Source of the DNA: Halobaculum gomorrense
GTDB lineage: Archaea > Halobacteriota > Halobacteria > Halobacteriales > Haloferacaceae
Assembly (NCBI RefSeq): GCF_900129775.1
Contig: NZ_FQWV01000001.1
Coordinates: forward strand, 1 to 64,000
Length of the DNA stretch: 64,000 nt
Reading direction: 5' to 3'
Under the pieces are notes generated by a model that was given only the letters and a program-made list of their open reading frames with translations, made no database searches and was not told where the DNA came from. How positions within the stretch are numbered: the first letter of the stretch is position 1; each line of letters starts with the position of its first letter. Positions 26,759-36,186 of the stretch are shown piece by piece. The position numbers and the translations under genes were made by a program.

Positions 26759-27713
26759 TCAGGTGTTCAACTGCGGAACGGGAACGTCCGAGAGGATCGC
26801 TGAGACGACATCCGTCGTCGCGACGCCGTCGACGCGAGCGTCGGGGGTTACGACGATTCGGTGAGAGAGGACCGGCAGCGCCATTGCCTTGACGTCGTCA
26901 GGCGTCGCGTAGTCTCGACCCTCGAGTGCGGCGTGGGCACGAACGGCCTCGAAGAACTTCTGGATACCTCGCGGTGACACGCCCGTGCGGACGCCTTCAT
27001 GTTCTCGGGTCGCGCGGGCGACGTCGACGAGGTACTCGCGAACGGCGTACTCCACGCGGACGACCTCGGGCGCCTCCCGCAGTTGGTCGAGACGCTCCGG
27101 GGTGCAGACCCGTTCGACCGACGCCGACTTCGACCGGCGCGACGCCCGGCGCTCGATCAGTTCGAGTTCACCCGAGCGATCGGGATACCCCAGCGTGGTC
27201 TTGACCGCGAACCGGTCCTTCTGAGCGACCGGGAGCTCGAACGTGCCGTCCATCTCGACGGGGTTCTGTGTGGCGATGACGACGAACGGGTCGGGAAGCG
27301 CATACGCGTCGCCGTCGACGGTGACTTGCCCTTCCTCCATCGCTTCCAGCAGCGCCGCCTGGGTCTTCGGCGGCGCCCGGTTGATCTCGTCGGCCAGCAT
27401 GACGTTCGCGAAGACTGGCCCAGGGGGGGAACTCGAACTCCCGCGTCGCTTCGTCGAAGACGTTCGAGCCGATGACGTCCGAGGGCAGCAGGTCGGGCGT
27501 GAACTGCACGCGCGAGAACGACACGCCGAGCGCGTCCGCGAACGATCGTGCAGTCAGCGTCTTTCCCGTCCCCGGAACGTCCTCGAGCAGGACGTGTCCG
27601 TCCGCGAGGATCCCCACGAGGATCGTCTCCAGCGTCGACCGCTCGGTGACGACGGCGCTTGCGATCTCATCGAGGAGTTCATCACACTGGCGGCGTACCG
27701 CCTCCGGTTCCAT
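26759..27713 (-). pseudogene. MoxR-family AAA+ ATPase, single-base frameshift
   Basis: The N-terminal part reads MEPEAVRRQCDELLDEI, then the Walker A segment EDVPGTGKTLTARSFADAL, up to FEFPP. The rest is in another frame: MLADEINRAPPKTQ (Walker B), VIATQNPVE, then GVSPRGIQKFFEAVRA (sensor 2 region) to the stop at 26759. Removing one base from the seven-G run at 27423-27429 restores FEFPPGPVFANVMLADEIN, the standard MoxR sequence, so there is exactly one lesion. MoxR chaperones usually act with VWA/DUF58 proteins, which are absent here. The shift is either a sequencing error, a recent inactivation or a phase-variable tract. Confidence 0.8.
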
Positions 27714-28683: not shown

Positions 28684-28929
28684 TTAGAGCTCCGATTCGG
28701 CGTATGCTTGCCTGCCCTCTGTAGTGAGCCACCAAACCCGAGATCGCGAGCCAGACTTCTTGCTCATTACTAACCCGCGTTCCTCAAGGTCGTTGAGCTT
28801 ACTGTATGCCGCTTGCTGAGAGACGCCTGCATCTTTAGCTACCTCGGAGGATGTAACGACCGGATCTGGAGACATGTAGAGGGCCCGGAGATATTTGATA
28901 TCACTGTCTCGAAGTCCCGGATTCGTCAT
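28684..28929 (-). CDS. Winged-helix DNA-binding regulator (81 aa)
   Basis: The protein has the pattern of a small MarR/PadR-like winged helix: LRDSDIKYLRALYMSPDPVV, then TSSEVAKDAGVSQQAAYSKL (helix-turn-helix with the recognition helix VSQQAAYSKLNDLEERG), then the wing LVMSKKSGSRSRVWWLTTEG and RQAYAES. The ATG at 28929 is preferred to the TTG one codon upstream. It is divergent from the 29191 operon with about 260 bases between, so it is the likely local regulator of that unit. No ligand-binding domain is present. Confidence 0.75.
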   Translation of the reverse strand: MTNPGLRDSDIKYLRALYMSPDPVVTSSEVAKDAGVSQQAAYSKLNDLEERGLVMSKKSGSRSRVWWLTTEGRQAYAESEL

Positions 28930-29141
28930 CAACTATCTGCTATTCGTGCCGCGGCAAAGACCCACCGAACCAATGAACGTATCTATGTGTGGGTTTCCAC
29001 GAAACAACTAAGTGGTCCCTCTTGTTAGAACACAATGAGCGACTCCATACGCACCCGCCGCCCACAGACGTGGCGGCTGACGCCTCACCGTCACCCGCCG
29101 TGTGGGGTCGCAAGCAAGCGACATGATCGATTCGCACACGC

Positions 29142-29161
29142 GCCGGCATCAACGTGCCGGC
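29142..29161. promoter_or_regulatory. 7-bp inverted repeat upstream of the 29191 operon
   Basis: GCCGGCA and TGCCGGC are separated by TCAACG, ending 29 bases before the ATG at 29191. The position overlaps where a TATA box and BRE would lie, so it could be an operator for the divergent winged-helix regulator. It may alternatively form an mRNA hairpin. Confidence 0.35.
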
Positions 29162-29190
29162 ACCGAACCAGTTGCAACACCCACCAACCA

Positions 29191-29703
29191 ATGAGTGAGC
29201 TCGCCTGGGGGGACTTACCGGCCCTCCAACGGGACCTCCTCCTCACAGTCGTCAGACTGGACCGCGATGGCACCCGAGCCACCAGAGAAGCACTCACCGA
29301 GGAACTCGGTCACTCGACGAGCATCGGCCCGGCGCTTGAGGATCTCACCGGCAGCGCCATCGCGATCGACACCTCCTCGCCGCCGACGTACACGCTCACG
29401 CCGACGGGTAACAGACTACTCACCCAGCACCACGCTCGCGTTTCGAGTGTCCTCAGCGCACGCACGTCTCCTGGGACTGTGGCCGTTCCGTACTGTCCAC
29501 ACTGCGACGCGGCGATTACTCTCCTATCGCCGCTTGGAGACTCGACTGTCCGAGCCACACCCTGTGGCTGTCATCTCGAGGTCAGTGACGACGACTCCCT
29601 GTACAAAACCCTCACAAACGCACTCAACCTCACAGCCGACACCGACGCACGCACACACCTCCGGCAGGCACTCCAACTTGCCATCGCGCGGGGTGAGCAA
29701 TGA
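29191..29703 (+). CDS. Winged-helix protein with C-terminal Cys-rich (zinc) segment
   Basis: The product is 170 residues. Residues 1-85 form a winged-helix-like unit (LQRDLLLTVVRLDRDGTRA, TREALTEELG, then YTLTPTGNRLL as the wing end). Residues 100-128 hold C102-x-x-C105 (YCPHCDA) and C125-G-C127-H128, a probable zinc site. A C-terminal helix follows. The ATG at 29191 is chosen because the frame upstream to 29035 is rich in His/Arg/Pro and unlike a domain. Its stop overlaps the next gene (ATGA at 29700-29703), so the two are coupled. It is probably a DNA-binding protein of the accessory island. Confidence 0.65.
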   Translation: MSELAWGDLPALQRDLLLTVVRLDRDGTRATREALTEELGHSTSIGPALEDLTGSAIAIDTSSPPTYTLTPTGNRLLTQHHARVSSVLSARTSPGTVAVPYCPHCDAAITLLSPLGDSTVRATPCGCHLEVSDDDSLYKTLTNALNLTADTDARTHLRQALQLAIARGEQ

Positions 29704-30377
29704 CGTACGACCCGCTTTCCCCAGAGATGGTGATCGAAGGACACGTCATGACGTGGGACGGGCGCAGTGACCCAGTGACCGTCGTTGATCAAGGCGACGA
29801 AACGCTGCTCGTTGAGACCGATAGAGGCGAGCAGTTCCAACTCGCAGGTACGTCTGCTGGACTCATAATCGAGGAAACCGGCGAGCACCTCGAGAACGCG
29901 CGCGTGATCGGTATGAACTCATGGCGGATGACGAATGAACTCACCAGCTACTTCGAAGAGACACTTGAGAAGTACGCCAGCACAACAATCTCTGCTGTCG
30001 AGTTCACCGAGCAAAACGATCTGAGCATCGATGAGATGAATTATCAACTGTCCACGCTTCTGGGGGACGCTCGATCCACGATTACTGCCCTGCGCAGTGG
30101 GAATGATACGTGGATCATCTGTGATTCGGGCTTCTATGGCCGGGGATCACAGTCAGAACTCGCTGACGCACTCTCGCATCGAGAACATGTCGAGGCGGTC
30201 GCCGAGGAGGACAACGTACTCGTTGTCACGTTCGATGGAGAGACGACAGCTGTCCCCCTGTTGGTTGCTCATCTCGTCTATCATGCCGGATGGGCGATCG
30301 TCTCGGTCACGAACCCGTATGGTGAGGACCCGCTCACGATGACACTCACTGACCGGCCGGAGGCGACTACACGATAG
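29700..30377 (+). CDS. Hypothetical protein of the accessory three-gene unit
   Basis: The product is 225 residues, acidic, without membrane segments or a signal. The N-terminal 60 residues look like a small beta domain (VIEGHVMTWDGRSDPVTVVD, TLLVETDRGEQFQLAG). A helical middle follows, with a possible HTH-like stretch (FTEQNDLSIDEMNYQLSTL), then a C-terminal alpha/beta part (VLVVTFDGETTAVPLLVAHL, GWAIVSVTNPYGEDPL). I do not recognise a family. It is translationally coupled to the winged-helix gene, so the two products probably act together. Confidence 0.55.
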   Translation: MTYDPLSPEMVIEGHVMTWDGRSDPVTVVDQGDETLLVETDRGEQFQLAGTSAGLIIEETGEHLENARVIGMNSWRMTNELTSYFEETLEKYASTTISAVEFTEQNDLSIDEMNYQLSTLLGDARSTITALRSGNDTWIICDSGFYGRGSQSELADALSHREHVEAVAEEDNVLVVTFDGETTAVPLLVAHLVYHAGWAIVSVTNPYGEDPLTMTLTDRPEATTR

Positions 30378-30440
30378 GACGCGTCGCCCCGCCTCGCTCG
30401 CTCGCCACCCACACCACCAGCCACAGCTCTCGCAACCCAT

Positions 30441-31286
30441 ATGTCACACACATCATCGACCGCACACGCACTGCCGACGACCGACCAGGATGTCGACCAA
30501 CTCGTCGCACTCGTTCACGAACAGAAGTCGACGATCGCTGACCTCACTGAGACCATCGGAGACCAGGCAGAGCGCATCGATGCACAACAGGAGCAACTAG
30601 AGACAGTCTGTACCCGTCTGAACGCACTCGAAGACGACGAGACCACCGACGACACTCTACAGTCAGCCGAACTCACAGAGCGGCTCGACACCCTCGAGCG
30701 CACGGTGACGATCAAACACGACCGGCACCTCTCGTGGCTCGATGGGATCATTGTCGGCGACGAGAGCGGCTACATCACCGACGAACAGGAAGCACTGCTC
30801 GAAGCACACGACTCACTTATCGACGCCCTCGATACGACGGCACAGTCTGACACCTCACATGAAGCCAATGCAGAGCCGACCCGTCTCCGTCGCATCGTCG
30901 ACGCGATCGCCGACAAGGTGGACCTCGACACGACAGCGGCACTTGGTGGCGCAACTGAGGACACACTCACGCGCCTGCTCAAACACGGGCCAAGCGACAT
31001 CACCGACCGCGTCTATGCGGTTCATCACCGGGCTCGTGACCTGTTGAGCCACATTGGCGAGTGGGGAACGACAACCAACGACGCCTACGGACGGAGAATT
31101 ACCATTTCAGCACCAGTCGTGAAGGAGAATCTGAGTCTCAAGCGGGATGAACACCTCTCCTCGACAGAGGTCCGCCGCATCTTCGAGAAACTCGAAGCAC
31201 TCGCTGCAGACTCACCGCGAGAGGTCACGGCCGACATCGGCGGTAGATCACAGAATCGACTCACGATCGCGCTTCCGGAGCCCTGA
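30441..31286 (+). CDS. Coiled-coil protein with C-terminal winged-helix-like domain, function unknown
   Basis: The product is 281 residues. Residues about 18-95 form an amphipathic coiled coil with two parts (VDQLVALVHEQKSTIADL through LNALEDD, then LTERLDTLERTV). A middle section has helix pairs (EPTRLRRIVDAIADKVDL, ATEDTLTRLLKHG). The C-terminus (ITISAPVVKENLSLKRDEHL, TEVRRIFEKLEALA) has the shape of a DNA-binding wing. Proteins with this plan are common on haloarchaeal plasmids and integrated elements. It is the third gene on the strand, 63 bases after the 29700 gene. Possible roles in partition or transfer are speculative. Confidence 0.6.
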   Translation: MSHTSSTAHALPTTDQDVDQLVALVHEQKSTIADLTETIGDQAERIDAQQEQLETVCTRLNALEDDETTDDTLQSAELTERLDTLERTVTIKHDRHLSWLDGIIVGDESGYITDEQEALLEAHDSLIDALDTTAQSDTSHEANAEPTRLRRIVDAIADKVDLDTTAALGGATEDTLTRLLKHGPSDITDRVYAVHHRARDLLSHIGEWGTTTNDAYGRRITISAPVVKENLSLKRDEHLSSTEVRRIFEKLEALAADSPREVTADIGGRSQNRLTIALPEP

Positions 31287-31605: not shown

Positions 31606-31628
31606 AGTATATAATTCTTTGCCCATTT
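31606..31628 (+). repeat. Left copy of a 23-bp direct repeat flanking the HerA/membrane module
   Basis: The sequence starts AGTATATAA and ends GCCCATTT. It matches 35511-35533 at 21 of 23 positions, the differences being T/A changes at positions 10 and 14. Both copies lie outside the two-gene unit 31688-35451 in the same orientation. The TATA-like core could also be a promoter on the plus strand. Confidence 0.5.
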
Positions 31629-31687: not shown

Positions 31688-34108
31688 CTACACCAAGCTA
31701 GGTTCTCCAAGCGCATCCCGTAGGTGCTTCATCGTGAAGACCTCGGTCAACCCTGCACAGTCGATCGCGTCGTTCACGTCGCGCATCGGCGTCCGGTCAC
31801 TGTAGGACTCGTCAATCCGTGGCTTCCCGTCAGCAGGCTCAGACAGCGGCCCGATGATCGCGCGGTGTGCGGCTTTCCGTGAGACGGCTGCCCACAGCAC
31901 TTCCGACGCATCCAACTCACTCATCTTATCGAAGTCACGAGGGGCCGCCTCACTAGCGTCGTGGTTCTTGCATTCCCCCTCGCCAACGACGACGACGTTT
32001 CGGTCTGCATCCAAGCCGGCGACGTCGACGCGAAAGTCTATGCCGGGCGGCTCATAATACGGGATCACTCGATCGACAGGCGAGTCATCACTGCGTTTGT
32101 ACTCCCGAACGATGTAGCGACGCAACGCCTCAACTAACGCCCTGTGCGTCGCCGTCTCATCGAGATCACCATACCCGTTACCGTGGTCGACACCCTCGCG
32201 ATTGTGCTCGTTCAACAGCGAGCGCCCGTCAGCAGTCACCGTATATAGCGTCTCACGTAACCCATCATCCCGCTTCAACAGGCCTTCTTCGAGCAACTCA
32301 TCTACCGCACCGCGTGACATCCCACAGTAGTTGCGCAACTGCACCATCGAGTTGTGCACGATATCGAACTCAACGGGGGAGTACACCATCCGCGTCGCGT
32401 TGAGCACGACCTGCAAGAACAGCAGTTGTTGCACCGAGACGTGCGTTGCCGCGATTTCTTCAGCAGACAACTTCAGCGAAGCGTAAATCGCCGGAATCGA
32501 CTCGATCGACACGTCGGCGACTGAATGATGGCATCGAATCGCCGCACGCAGTCCTTCGTAGGTCGGGTCATACACTTGCGAACACGAGGGGTGCCCACAT
32601 GCGATCGCATCGCGGTCTGCAACATATGACACACAGTCTGGCAAGACCGGCGTCACCGGCAGTGTTGTCCCCGCTTGCACGAGTTCAGGAGCCGATGAGG
32701 AGACTGTATCGGACTCATCAGTCGTCACGTGCTCGTAGGCTGTCGGGTGGATACCGATCTCGTTACTGGTTCGCGCGACCAATGCGTCCAGTGCTTGGTC
32801 CAACCCCGAACGCTCGGCATCTGAAAGCGGTCGGTCACTCTCCGGATAGCCCGGCGGAAGCGGTGCCGACCGCATCGGCACCGTCGAGGCTGAGCGACCG
32901 TCGAACTCCACCGGTGGTGCACGAAACAACCACTGGCCTGGAGAAAGCGCACTGAGTACCTGTTGAGTCTCTGCAGGCGAGGAGCTTCGCACCGACAACT
33001 GCTTTGCCAATACGGGGTCATCCGGAACCTGCCCAGAAACGAAGGCGTGTGACTCAGCTACTAACTCGTGATAGAGTCGGTCAGGTGCGTGACTGTCGTG
33101 TTTAGCCTGCCCCGGGAACTGCATCGAAGAGACAATCGACAAGCCGTATCCACGCCCCTCTGAGAGCATCGTCGACAGCAGCGGCGTCAGTGCGATGTTT
33201 GCGACCTCCTCAATATGGAGGAACACATGTCCCGGGTCCACATCCAACGCAAGCTGCCTGCTTCGGCGTTTTAGTGCGAACCATAACTCGGCCAGCAAGA
33301 CAGTGGCGAGCCCACGCTGTGTCTCTCGGGCGACATCACCGAGATCGAACAACAGTGTTGCATCCGTGTCGAGGATCTGGTCGAACCGAAACTGTGGTGT
33401 CGACTCGTCAGTCGCAAGATGATTGAATACCGTTGCTAAGTCGACACGGCCGGTGACCTGCTCGAGGACAGTAATCACACCGGTCATCACTGCCTCCCGC
33501 ACATCTTCATCCAGTTGCGCAAGATCCTCGAGAATCCGAGCGGCCCTGTCGCTCGAGACAGACGGGGGCGCTCCGCCATGCTGGATCGCCCGCGCTTCCT
33601 CGAACAAGTCTCGATGCCGAAACGCATTGTCGCCGTAGGCTGGGTCGAACTGCGCTCGAATCAACGCCCGAATGGTCGGCGCTGTTCGCTTCCCGAACGA
33701 CACATCACTGCTCAAATACCGGACGACCTCGAGATATCGGTCAGCACGGTTTTCGATCGCCCGTGAGCGACCAAGGCCTGCCGCAAGATCAGCGCTGATG
33801 TCGAAAAACGGGATCGCCGGGAGTACCTCCGCAACTGGGATATACACCACCGAACCAAGCGGCGCACCACTTGCATAGACAGCACGGATAATCCGCTCAC
33901 TCATCCCGTCACCTTTCCCGTCGATAAGGATTCGAGGCCCCTCCATCGACTTGTGTGCCGAGGTGAACATCGTCTCCCCAAGCACTGATTTTCCCGTATT
34001 CGTCTTGCCAGTGATCAGTGTGTGAAACGGAAGCGCCGTACGCGGAATCTCAATCGCCTGCCTCCTCGTGACATCGTCCGGTGTGGTGTCGCCAATTCGT
34101 AGTCCCAT
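31688..34108 (-). CDS. HerA/FtsK-like ATPase with winged helix and PD-(D/E)XK-like C-terminus
   Basis: The product is 806 residues. Walker A is G34KTNTGKS41, preceded by LPFHTLI. Walker B is VFLHIEE at 295-301. The pattern LSEGRGYGLSIVSSMQFP after it is typical of HerA/TraD/VirB4-type DNA pumps. A Cys/His cluster (C504, C509, C526, H527, H528) follows, then a winged helix around 585-640. Residues 690-714 hold D695 and then E712-C-K714, with the strand VVVVG before them, the spacing of a PD-(D/E)XK nuclease core. It is expressed downstream of a membrane protein 56 bases away. It could pump DNA through a membrane port or act as an anti-element nuclease; the nuclease part is inferred from motif spacing only. 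Confidence 0.7.
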   Translation of the reverse strand: MGLRIGDTTPDDVTRRQAIEIPRTALPFHTLITGKTNTGKSVLGETMFTSAHKSMEGPRILIDGKGDGMSERIIRAVYASGAPLGSVVYIPVAEVLPAIPFFDISADLAAGLGRSRAIENRADRYLEVVRYLSSDVSFGKRTAPTIRALIRAQFDPAYGDNAFRHRDLFEEARAIQHGGAPPSVSSDRAARILEDLAQLDEDVREAVMTGVITVLEQVTGRVDLATVFNHLATDESTPQFRFDQILDTDATLLFDLGDVARETQRGLATVLLAELWFALKRRSRQLALDVDPGHVFLHIEEVANIALTPLLSTMLSEGRGYGLSIVSSMQFPGQAKHDSHAPDRLYHELVAESHAFVSGQVPDDPVLAKQLSVRSSSPAETQQVLSALSPGQWLFRAPPVEFDGRSASTVPMRSAPLPPGYPESDRPLSDAERSGLDQALDALVARTSNEIGIHPTAYEHVTTDESDTVSSSAPELVQAGTTLPVTPVLPDCVSYVADRDAIACGHPSCSQVYDPTYEGLRAAIRCHHSVADVSIESIPAIYASLKLSAEEIAATHVSVQQLLFLQVVLNATRMVYSPVEFDIVHNSMVQLRNYCGMSRGAVDELLEEGLLKRDDGLRETLYTVTADGRSLLNEHNREGVDHGNGYGDLDETATHRALVEALRRYIVREYKRSDDSPVDRVIPYYEPPGIDFRVDVAGLDADRNVVVVGEGECKNHDASEAAPRDFDKMSELDASEVLWAAVSRKAAHRAIIGPLSEPADGKPRIDESYSDRTPMRDVNDAIDCAGLTEVFTMKHLRDALGEPSLV

Positions 34109-34164
34109 TAGTCTCTGTGAATGCGTGGTTCGCCGTTTTAGCGGCGATCGGTTCGACAGCGCCG

Positions 34165-35451
34165 CTAGTCGTCTCCGCCGAGGAAGCCGCTGTCTAAGTC
34201 GTCGGGACCAGTCGGGAACTGTGACTCCCCACCAGTATCCCCGAGTCCCCCGGTATCTTTGTCAGTTTCCGAGGGAAGGAAGTCGACTACCGCTTCCTTC
34301 AAGATGACCGGCGTCCGCTTCCCGTTCAATCGCTTGATCGTTGGGCGGTGGTCATCCCAGACTGCGTTCGGGTGCAGTTGTTCAGGTGGCGACTCAGTCA
34401 GGGAAGCCACATCTGTCGAGTCGATGTGAGACTTCGCCGACACGCCCGGCGTCTGGTTGAAGTACGACTTCGCGTCCTGCAGAAGTGTCTTCACCGTCGC
34501 TCTCGCAGACACTCCGACAGCAACTGCAACGACAGTCACGGCGAACTGTCCGCCGTCATTGCGACAGTCTGCGAGGATCTCTCTGGTTACACCGTTGTCC
34601 GAACGCTTGCGCCAGGCACCGATCCGCTTGTTCGACAGATCGATGGGCGCGAACCGTGCTTCGAACCCTGCAAGAGGTGCCTGTGACTCTCGTAGCGTCC
34701 GCGTGACTCGCTCACCGACCACCTCGTTGGAGTTGTCTTGCTTGTTCCCGGGTTTCATCACGACATTGCCTTGTTCATCAGGGGCGATCGTCACAGCGCC
34801 GACAACGACCTGTTCACTTTCGGGACGCTCTGCACTGGCACGCTGTAGTCCCGTCAGAAGATCCGGAGCGCTCGCCTCGGTGGTACTGATCGATCGACCC
34901 ATCGATGAGTTCAACAACTGCGTGACCGGGGCCGACTCATCAGTTCCGACCGTTGTTTCGACCTCACCGTTGGTCGCGAGTCCACTGATCCGACTCGTGG
35001 ATGTCCGCGTCCACCCCCGACGAAGCATCGGACCGGCGGCGAGCGCTGGGATAACTGCGACACTGCCCGCCATCACAGCGACTGGGCCGCCGTACAGCGT
35101 TGGGACGCCAGGAGCGAGCTTCGCAGAGAGAACGATAGTGTAGAGTGTCTCATGATCAACCACCAGGTACCGAAGAAGTGACAGCATCCACTCTTCCACC
35201 CACGCAGTAGCGACGACACTCACCGCCAGAGCGGTGGGCACTGCCGCGACACCGATCACTGTAGCCCTGCACAAGTAGTTGAACCACCGGTCACGTGCCC
35301 GTTCCCTGTACTCAGCTCCGATCGACTGTTCCCATCGCTTCACAGTCTGCCATCTCGTCGTCTCGTGGAGGCCATCTGCGAATTTCCGCGCAGCTACCTC
35401 GCCACTACTGCGGTCGAATCTCGTGACCCGCCGCACTCGATCGCCTTTCAC
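34165..35451 (-). CDS. Membrane protein paired with the HerA-like ATPase
   Basis: The product is 428 residues and starts with GTG at 35451; a stop lies nine bases upstream, which fixes the start. Two to three hydrophobic segments lie in residues about 60-140 (TVIGVAAVPTALAVSVVATA, VAVMAGSVAVIPALAAG). The remaining 290 residues are soluble, with LEVQ-like strands (SEQVVVGAVTIAPDEQGNVV) and a hydrophobic strand FAVTVVAVAVGVSA. The tail is acidic and Gly-rich (GPDDLDSGFLGGDD). I cannot name a family. The pairing with a HerA/VirD4-type ATPase suggests a membrane anchor or channel part of a conjugation-like apparatus. Confidence 0.6.
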   Translation of the reverse strand: MKGDRVRRVTRFDRSSGEVAARKFADGLHETTRWQTVKRWEQSIGAEYRERARDRWFNYLCRATVIGVAAVPTALAVSVVATAWVEEWMLSLLRYLVVDHETLYTIVLSAKLAPGVPTLYGGPVAVMAGSVAVIPALAAGPMLRRGWTRTSTSRISGLATNGEVETTVGTDESAPVTQLLNSSMGRSISTTEASAPDLLTGLQRASAERPESEQVVVGAVTIAPDEQGNVVMKPGNKQDNSNEVVGERVTRTLRESQAPLAGFEARFAPIDLSNKRIGAWRKRSDNGVTREILADCRNDGGQFAVTVVAVAVGVSARATVKTLLQDAKSYFNQTPGVSAKSHIDSTDVASLTESPPEQLHPNAVWDDHRPTIKRLNGKRTPVILKEAVVDFLPSETDKDTGGLGDTGGESQFPTGPDDLDSGFLGGDD

Positions 35452-35510: not shown

Positions 35511-35533
35511 AGTATATAAATCTATGCCCATTT
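35511..35533 (+). repeat. Right copy of the 23-bp direct repeat
   Basis: It matches 31606-31628 at 21 of 23 bases (AGTATATAA ... GCCCATTT). It lies 60 bases upstream of the membrane-protein start. Read on the minus strand the same bases contain TTTATATACT, which might serve as the promoter of the two-gene unit with a leader of about 40 bases. Confidence 0.5.
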
Positions 35534-35649: not shown

Positions 35650-36186
35650 GTGTATTAGCGGCGTCACTTCCCAGCGCGCTACGCGCTGGCGTACGCCGCA
35701 GAACCAATCATCGTCCTCACGAAGGACAACGATGGAAAGCACTCAGCGCTCAACCACGGACTCAGACATACGGACACCGACCACATCGTCACCGTCGATG
35801 CCGACTCTGTCATCAAGCAAGATGCTCTCTCGGAACTCGTTTGATCACTGAAAGCGAACCCCAACGCCGGCGCCGTCGCAGGGAATGTCAAGGTAGCCAA
35901 CCGGGATTCGTTCATCACGCGCCTCCAAGCACTCGAGGCATCGGCGGGGTCACCACGTTCAGACGTACGGTCGGCCTGCTGGGCTTGTTCATCCTGCTAC
36001 AACTGTTGCTCTCGCTAGTAGCGATCCACATCGAAAAACGATGATCTGTGGCTCGGACGATACGCACCGCTGTCAATTGTCGACTACAAGCAGTTCCTCG
36101 ATACCGTCTTGCTCAAGCGTGTCGCCGACGGCTTCACGTACGACGATCTTGCGTGGACCGGTCCCGAGCCGATCCGCCAACGGTAG
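35650..36186 (+). pseudogene. Decayed GT2 polysaccharide synthase with internal deletion
   Basis: The first fragment has EPIIVLTKDNDGKHSALNHG and HIVTVDADSVIKQDALSEL, the nucleotide-binding and D-x-D motifs of processive GT2 synthases (NodC, hyaluronan and cellulose synthase kin). An in-frame TGA follows, then NAGAVAGNVKVANRDSF. After a break only the C-terminal end remains: a hydrophobic LLGLFILLQLLLSLVA and, in another frame, LWLGRYAPLSIVDYKQFLDT, ending LAWTGPEPIRQR. The membrane and catalytic QxxRW parts are gone. It is a relic of a former surface-polysaccharide synthase next to the epimerase gene. Confidence 0.65.

Follow-up and report, generated by a model that had tools for sequence, protein, structure and literature searches.

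Papers on archaeal conjugative plasmids state that these plasmids lack a recognisable relaxase, and Rep-Arvir rolling-circle endonucleases have been reported in archaeal conjugative elements (PMC13107129). In Thermus, efficient DNA donation by TdtA, an orphan hexameric translocase carried in an integrative element, requires both a restriction enzyme and a nuclease that is NurA-like (PMC5365140, PMC7767461). Here we describe a pair of adjacent genes, P0001 and P0002, in a stretch of 64,000 nucleotides of Halobaculum gomorrense (contig NZ_FQWV01000001.1, positions 1 to 64,000), which we call the window. Our preferred reading, to which we give a probability of roughly 55%, is that the two genes encode a relative of the VirD4/TraD-type coupling protein of haloarchaeal conjugative elements that is split and stands alone, and that their products form a membrane-anchored DNA translocase that would recognise, cut and pump DNA.

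Both genes lie on the minus strand, and analysis of the open reading frames (ORFs) bears out the shared strand and the 56 bases between them that an earlier note on this DNA had given. P0001 (31688..34108) has an ATG start and encodes 806 amino acids (aa) that combine an ATPase, a winged helix and a nuclease-like domain. P0002 (34165..35451) has a GTG start and encodes a 428-aa membrane protein, which its ORF, position and architecture lead us to propose as the anchor, or N-terminal subunit, of a split coupling protein. The two are real genes. Chance can be ruled out for the P0001 ORF because it is conserved across many haloarchaea: looking for the pair elsewhere, as the earlier note had suggested, we found members of the P0001 family in 198 of the 394 genomes of the order (E<=1e-20) and relatives in 81 of 147 related genomes searched, and homologues of P0002 at the same position in two congeneric genomes only. 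P0001 is also under strong purifying selection. The window protein and its congeneric homologue at locus L031 are 72% identical, with nonsynonymous divergence (dN) of 0.20, synonymous divergence (dS) of 1.54, which is near saturation, and a ratio of about 0.13; dN/dS between L031 and L032 is 0.07. P0002 evolves faster (dN/dS about 0.28-0.35). Upstream of P0002 lies a TATA-like repeat, AGTATATAAATCTATGCCCATTT (35511..35533), which is likely the operon promoter; AGTATATAA also precedes the homologous operon at L031. The 23-base AGTATATAAWTCTWTGCCCATTT occurs in two copies of the same orientation that flank the gene pair, one at 31606-31628, downstream of P0001, and the other at 35511-35533. Its pattern has 2 matches in the window, against 0 expected.

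The motor of P0001 had been taken for an ATPase of the HerA/TraD type. The Walker A motif G34KTNTGKS41 (residues 34-41; 33986..34009, minus strand) and the Walker B region VFLHIEE (residues 295-301; 33206..33226, minus) are present as described, and none of G39, K40, E301, R319, Q330 and Q334 varies among 21 relatives. P0001 alone gives sub-threshold Pfam matches only, one of them to TraG-D_C at residues 295-336 (E 0.005). Its relatives match DUF87 (16/21), TrwB_AAD_bind (15/21) and TraG-D_C (13/21), as well as the NCBIfam models for SXT TraD (18/21) and VirD4-like CD1115 (12/21), the latter two below their curated cut-offs. Among solved structures, the family profile matches the coupling protein TrwB best (E 4.8e-6) and HerA-type proteins less well. 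To judge from these profile matches, the motor is a RecA-like ATPase closest to the TrwB/TraD coupling proteins; the TraD side of the earlier assignment stands, and the HerA models match more weakly. Membership of the HerA-NurA group was rejected: only 5 of the 21 members hit helicase_HerA, at E 4e-5 at best, and a full-length plasmid relative scored 22 bits against the cut-off of 970. A Pfam scan of the genes beside the pair (28684-31286) gave no match to nurA, mre11 or rad50. A viral packaging ATPase was rejected as well, with 0 matches in 50,697 phage records and weak PHROG matches. The Cys/His cluster noted earlier (C504, C509 and C526-H527; 32528..32599, minus), a possible zinc knuckle, is present; C504 is kept in 18, C509 in 17 and C526 in 16 of 21 relatives, the cluster being mostly conserved outside the plasmid branch and missing from it.

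We aligned residues 487-806 of P0001 for 40 sequences (23-77% identity to the window protein) and modelled the same region with AlphaFold (AF2; mean predicted local distance difference test score, pLDDT, 90.4). In the model, residues 559-631 (32216..32434, minus) form a winged helix, for which MarR-family proteins were the clearest Foldseek matches in the PDB (probability up to 1.00, E about 0.01), in agreement with the winged helix that had been proposed from the sequence. It is followed by a helix (653-670), three strands (680-685, 694-699 and 705-711), a second helix (718-730), a fourth strand (736-741) and a last helix (744-756). The resulting topology, alpha-beta-beta-beta-alpha-beta, is in restriction-endonuclease-like order at a pLDDT of about 90, which supports the PD-(D/E)XK-like fold that had been suspected; we assign this predicted domain to residues 651-756 (31841..32158, minus). 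D695 (codon at 32024..32026, minus) starts strand 2 and E710-x-E712 (31973..31981, minus) ends strand 3, the positions of the PD-(D/E)XK metal ligands. Both lie among the residues that are invariant in the 40 sequences: E651, H655, Y684, D695, E710, E712, D725, D727 and W739. The catalytic core proposed earlier, D695...E712-x-K714, thus needs amending: D695 and E712 hold, and position 714 is variable, with K in 3 of 21 relatives, so E712-x-K714 was rejected as the active site. The family core is D695-x14-E710-x-E712, which by its sequence appears to be an E-x-E variant of the PD-(D/E)XK catalytic motif. E-x-E variants are known from active enzymes such as BamHI.

Several further domains deserve mention in their own right. 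A weak, non-significant profile alignment to DUF234 sets E710-x-E712 on the E-C-K of that family, and ATPase_2 + DUF234 proteins, which contain a winged helix, are often encoded near the coupling proteins (L031, L032, L037, L038, L039, L049 and L114). In one plasmid branch (L064-L067) the C-terminus of the coupling protein is different and contains a PD...E-V-E motif; its profile match to the P0001 domain is not significant, and it is perhaps an independently acquired restriction-endonuclease-like domain. A 1449-aa protein at L068 (7352-11701) has a C-terminal part related to that of P0001 (E 2.8e-31); its E-x-E motif does not keep the second E (GEVISN), so this is possibly an inactive variant.

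The relatives of P0001, at loci where genes were called with a simple ORF scorer, are of three kinds: plasmid long forms, chromosomal long forms and short forms. The majority are long, single proteins of 1,160-1,300 aa from plasmids and integrative elements. Plasmid forms are single polypeptides of about 1,220-1,300 aa whose operon also encodes an exported protein, a lipoprotein, a TrbL_3/VirB6 protein (E 3.5e-137), a two-helix protein, VirB4 and a primase. One plasmid of this kind, pNRC200 of Halobacterium salinarum NRC-1, is typed as MPF_T and non-mobilizable; all 143 plasmids with a family match are typed "non-mobilizable". Chromosomal long forms (about 1,160-1,300 aa) have a TrbL_3 gene no more than 110 kb away in 26 of 38 cases, compared with 2 of 12 for short or interrupted forms, both of these being broken or incomplete long forms, a criterion of distance that was set after the distances were seen. 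Several chromosomal long-form neighbourhoods hold an entire VirB6/VirB4 cluster, and these loci look like integrative conjugative elements (ICEs). The short forms, the window's included, are about 800-880 aa. By these sequence relationships P0001 belongs to a haloarchaeal family with an ATPase like that of coupling proteins, in which the window's form represents a distinct split, stand-alone class. The coupling-protein type of the ATPase and the occurrence of relatives in TrbL/VirB6-VirB4 operons support the DNA-transfer device that the earlier note had offered as one of two alternatives.

P0002 is a membrane protein, as had been noted: hydropathy predicts two transmembrane helices, at about residues 59-77 (35221..35277, minus) and 119-137 (35041..35097, minus). 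A two-helix membrane protein lies directly upstream of the motor in the window and at L031, L032, L033, L049, L055, L112 and L113, analogous proteins being found at five loci besides those with homologues of P0002, while L050 and L056 have a small two-helix gene and a gene for a soluble protein there instead. The upstream proteins of L112 (E 4e-7) and L113 (E 2e-4) match the N-terminal domain found in fused coupling proteins, and a profile that incorporates them retrieves the upstream protein of L055 (E 1e-5). At those loci the coupling protein is therefore split between N-terminal domain and motor, and its N-terminal part carries two membrane helices. The layout around P0002 is the same, but P0002 itself has no significant match; what the earlier note called a membrane protein of unknown family is explicable through the homology of the L112 and L113 proteins at the equivalent position. 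In a tree of the motor and C-terminal domains, which has long branches, one branch with 100/100 support parts all fused forms from all split forms, and a single change of state therefore suffices.

Following the earlier note, we looked in the window genome for relics of relaxase and VirB4 genes, and also of VirB6; none was found. Relaxases were searched for as PF03432 and Replic_Relax (PF13814), and neither was found at cut-off in that genome. PF03432 relaxases are present in 4 of 89 related genomes, none of the 4 carrying the coupling-protein family of P0001; Replic_Relax was over its cut-off in 0 of 99 related genomes, and it was not among the matches of the C-terminal domain in 40 members at E<=1. 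Since no relaxase is recognised in archaeal conjugation, the domain fused to P0001 becomes a candidate substitute and could be the DNA-cutting enzyme seemingly absent from archaeal conjugation. The Rep-Arvir endonucleases are a rival candidate for the same role. The closest relative of the window genome, a congeneric genome (G009), has neither TrbL_3 nor VirB4. Four other genomes with split forms (G006, G030, G316 and G372) have TrbL_3/VirB4 on other contigs or more than 1 Mb away.

The pair is best read as part of an integrated mobile element. To its left in the window are four further genes: one for an 82-aa TrmB/MarR-type winged helix, a probable regulator of the element (28684..28932, minus; Pfam match over cut-off; 35% identical homologue in G009), and three on the plus strand. 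These encode a 222-aa winged-helix/zinc-ribbon-like protein (29035..29703; weak Pfam matches; positional counterpart at 710556-711173 in G009), a 225-aa protein (29700..30377; 57% identical homologue in the G009 element) and a 281-aa coiled-coil protein (30441..31286; 76% identical homologue in the G009 element, and homologues on other replicons). G009 has the same genes in the same order and orientation, from the winged helix through the three plus-strand genes to the genes for motor and membrane protein, which are on the minus strand. There a tyrosine integrase lies beside the first gene group, and 22 kb with a tRNA cluster and transposase-like genes separate the two groups; seven tRNA genes are found inside this island between the module halves (L090, 14172-17757). 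Surface-sugar genes adjoin the element on at least one side in both genomes. At least four matches to the window's sugar genes occur within 20 kb in 4 of 9 split-form loci (the window aside; L119-L135), against 1 of 10 long-form loci (L137-L156), which is suggestive only of a tendency of split forms towards surface-sugar gene clusters. A degraded family-2 glycosyltransferase fragment (EPIIVLTKDNDGKHSALNHGLRHTDTDHIVTVDADSV...) lies beside the element at 35683-35850. A gene for a MoxR-type AAA ATPase (26759-27713) comes in two frames that overlap, 27168-27713 and 26759-27400, owing to a frameshift or a sequencing error.

If the pair is a split coupling protein, we envisage that it works as follows. 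P0002 would bind P0001, anchor the complex in the membrane and provide the N-terminal domain. The ATPase of P0001 would assemble, as expected for its family, into a hexameric ring that threads DNA. The winged helix would bind DNA at a recognised site, the PD-(D/E)XK-like domain (D695, E710-x-E712) would nick or cut there, and the cut would give the motor its point of entry. The motor would then pump DNA, either the element's own or chromosomal, across the membrane, most likely as part of transfer between cells. A more specific proposal, which we put forward tentatively and hold to be possible rather than probable, is that the winged helix and nuclease-like domain are a built-in relaxase substitute and that the window pair is a minimal two-protein DNA-export machine that dispenses with a type IV secretion system (T4SS).

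Several results weigh against the split-coupling-protein reading. No PDB or viral structure matched the C-terminal model in Foldseek at E<=1e-3, for which reason nuclease activity is a prediction; the nuclease fold is deduced from predicted topology and motif, and Pfam gives no confirmation of the domain. Direct profile comparison (hhalign) of P0002 with the N-terminal domain of the fused forms gave E 0.2-0.34, which is not significant, so that P0002 was not accepted as a homologue of that domain on this route, and its structure model is unusable (pLDDT 32). We infer its identity from position and architecture because the sequence match and the model do not provide it. The window contains neither an integrase nor paired attachment sites, and its genome has neither TrbL_3/VirB6 nor VirB4, hence no T4SS channel gene.

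A rival reading makes the pair a donation machine like that of Thermus, working as in the preferred reading but exporting chromosomal fragments, cut by the nuclease, without a T4SS, and serving chromosomal exchange, not the element. Like TdtA, which is an orphan translocase in an integrative element and depends on nucleases, the motor of the window pair is an orphan; it is joined to a nuclease-like domain, and its genome has no T4SS. However, the likeness of P0001 to TdtA is at the level of the ATPase superfamily, and TdtA works together with the natural competence of the recipient. We regard this account as unlikely. Slightly less likely still is a defence device, the second alternative of the earlier note; in such a device a membrane-bound HerA-like motor would capture incoming viral or plasmid DNA and the fused nuclease would degrade it. 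HerA-nuclease pairs do act in defence, a genome-variable location is as typical of defence as of mobile elements, and there is a weak match of the ATPase region to PADLOC mad8 (E 6.9e-7). That match spans only residues 11-334 of P0001, though, PADLOC has no match in P0002, the window shows no recognisable further defence gene next to the pair, and the relatives are located in conjugation operons, so that defence gains no specific support.

The pair could instead belong to a mobilizable element with a coupling protein and nuclease of its own, which would depend for its TrbL/VirB4 channel on a conjugative element in the same cell. This would suit the four split-form genomes that hold TrbL_3/VirB4 elements elsewhere, as well as the integrase-bearing module of G009. 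It becomes quite improbable given that the window genome and G009 are without any TrbL_3 or VirB4, and that the tree sets split forms, which have a putative membrane anchor of their own, apart from the T4SS-linked forms. Finally, the missing integrase, the broken neighbours (the glycosyltransferase relic and the frameshifted MoxR gene) and the lack of T4SS genes would all suit an integrated conjugative element of which only a functionless, decaying relic is left, but both frames are intact, all motifs are retained and dN/dS of P0001 is about 0.07-0.13, making decay very hard to credit.

On the split-coupling-protein reading, a widespread haloarchaeal family would carry an invariant, predicted nuclease-like active site fused beside a putative DNA-recognition domain, which opens the question of the missing relaxase to a direct test by point mutation in a tractable archaeon. 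If the fused domains are indeed a built-in relaxase substitute, the coupling protein itself would recognise and nick DNA, which would explain the missing relaxase in haloarchaeal conjugation. The split class that lacks a T4SS would suggest a minimal DNA-translocating unit.

How, then, does the pair compare with known systems? With TrwB, TraD and VirD4 it shares an ATPase with Walker A and B motifs from one branch of the superfamily and relatives in TrbL/VirB4 operons, and a membrane anchor is proposed for its N-terminal side, but this putative anchor is on a separate polypeptide, its motor is fused to a winged helix and a nuclease-like domain, and its genome has no T4SS. The plasmid and ICE proteins annotated as "ATP-binding/DUF87 protein" (such as VNG_RS11050 of pNRC200) are homologous in motor and C-terminus at about 30-39% identity and have the same nuclease-like residues; unlike the window pair, they are T4SS-linked single polypeptides of 1,160-1,300 aa that lack predicted transmembrane helices and are encoded beside VirB4 and TrbL_3. 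The HerA-NurA and HerA-nuclease defence systems resemble P0001 in ATPase superfamily and in having an associated nuclease, whereas no NurA, SIR2 or DUF4297 gene was recognised beside P0001, whose motor is closer to coupling proteins and whose nuclease-like domain is fused. ATPase_2 + DUF234 proteins likewise have a winged helix and a D...E-C-K core, but a different type of ATPase, and the profile alignment lacks significance. For a relaxase that joins a winged helix to a restriction-endonuclease-like domain, the closest precedent by analogy is the MOBC relaxases (TraX of pAD1; Replic_Relax), in which a winged helix precedes a PD-(D/E)XK-related catalytic domain (PMC12857230); P0001 differs in having no Replic_Relax sequence match and in the fusion of its domain to a coupling ATPase, and its relaxase role is that of a candidate. 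For an orphan, element-borne translocase that operates with nucleases, the closest working precedent, again by analogy, is TdtA with NurA and Tth111II of the Thermus element ICETh1, where the translocase is of the HerA/FtsK type and the nuclease genes stand apart from it, while in the window pair motor and nuclease-like domain are joined in one protein.

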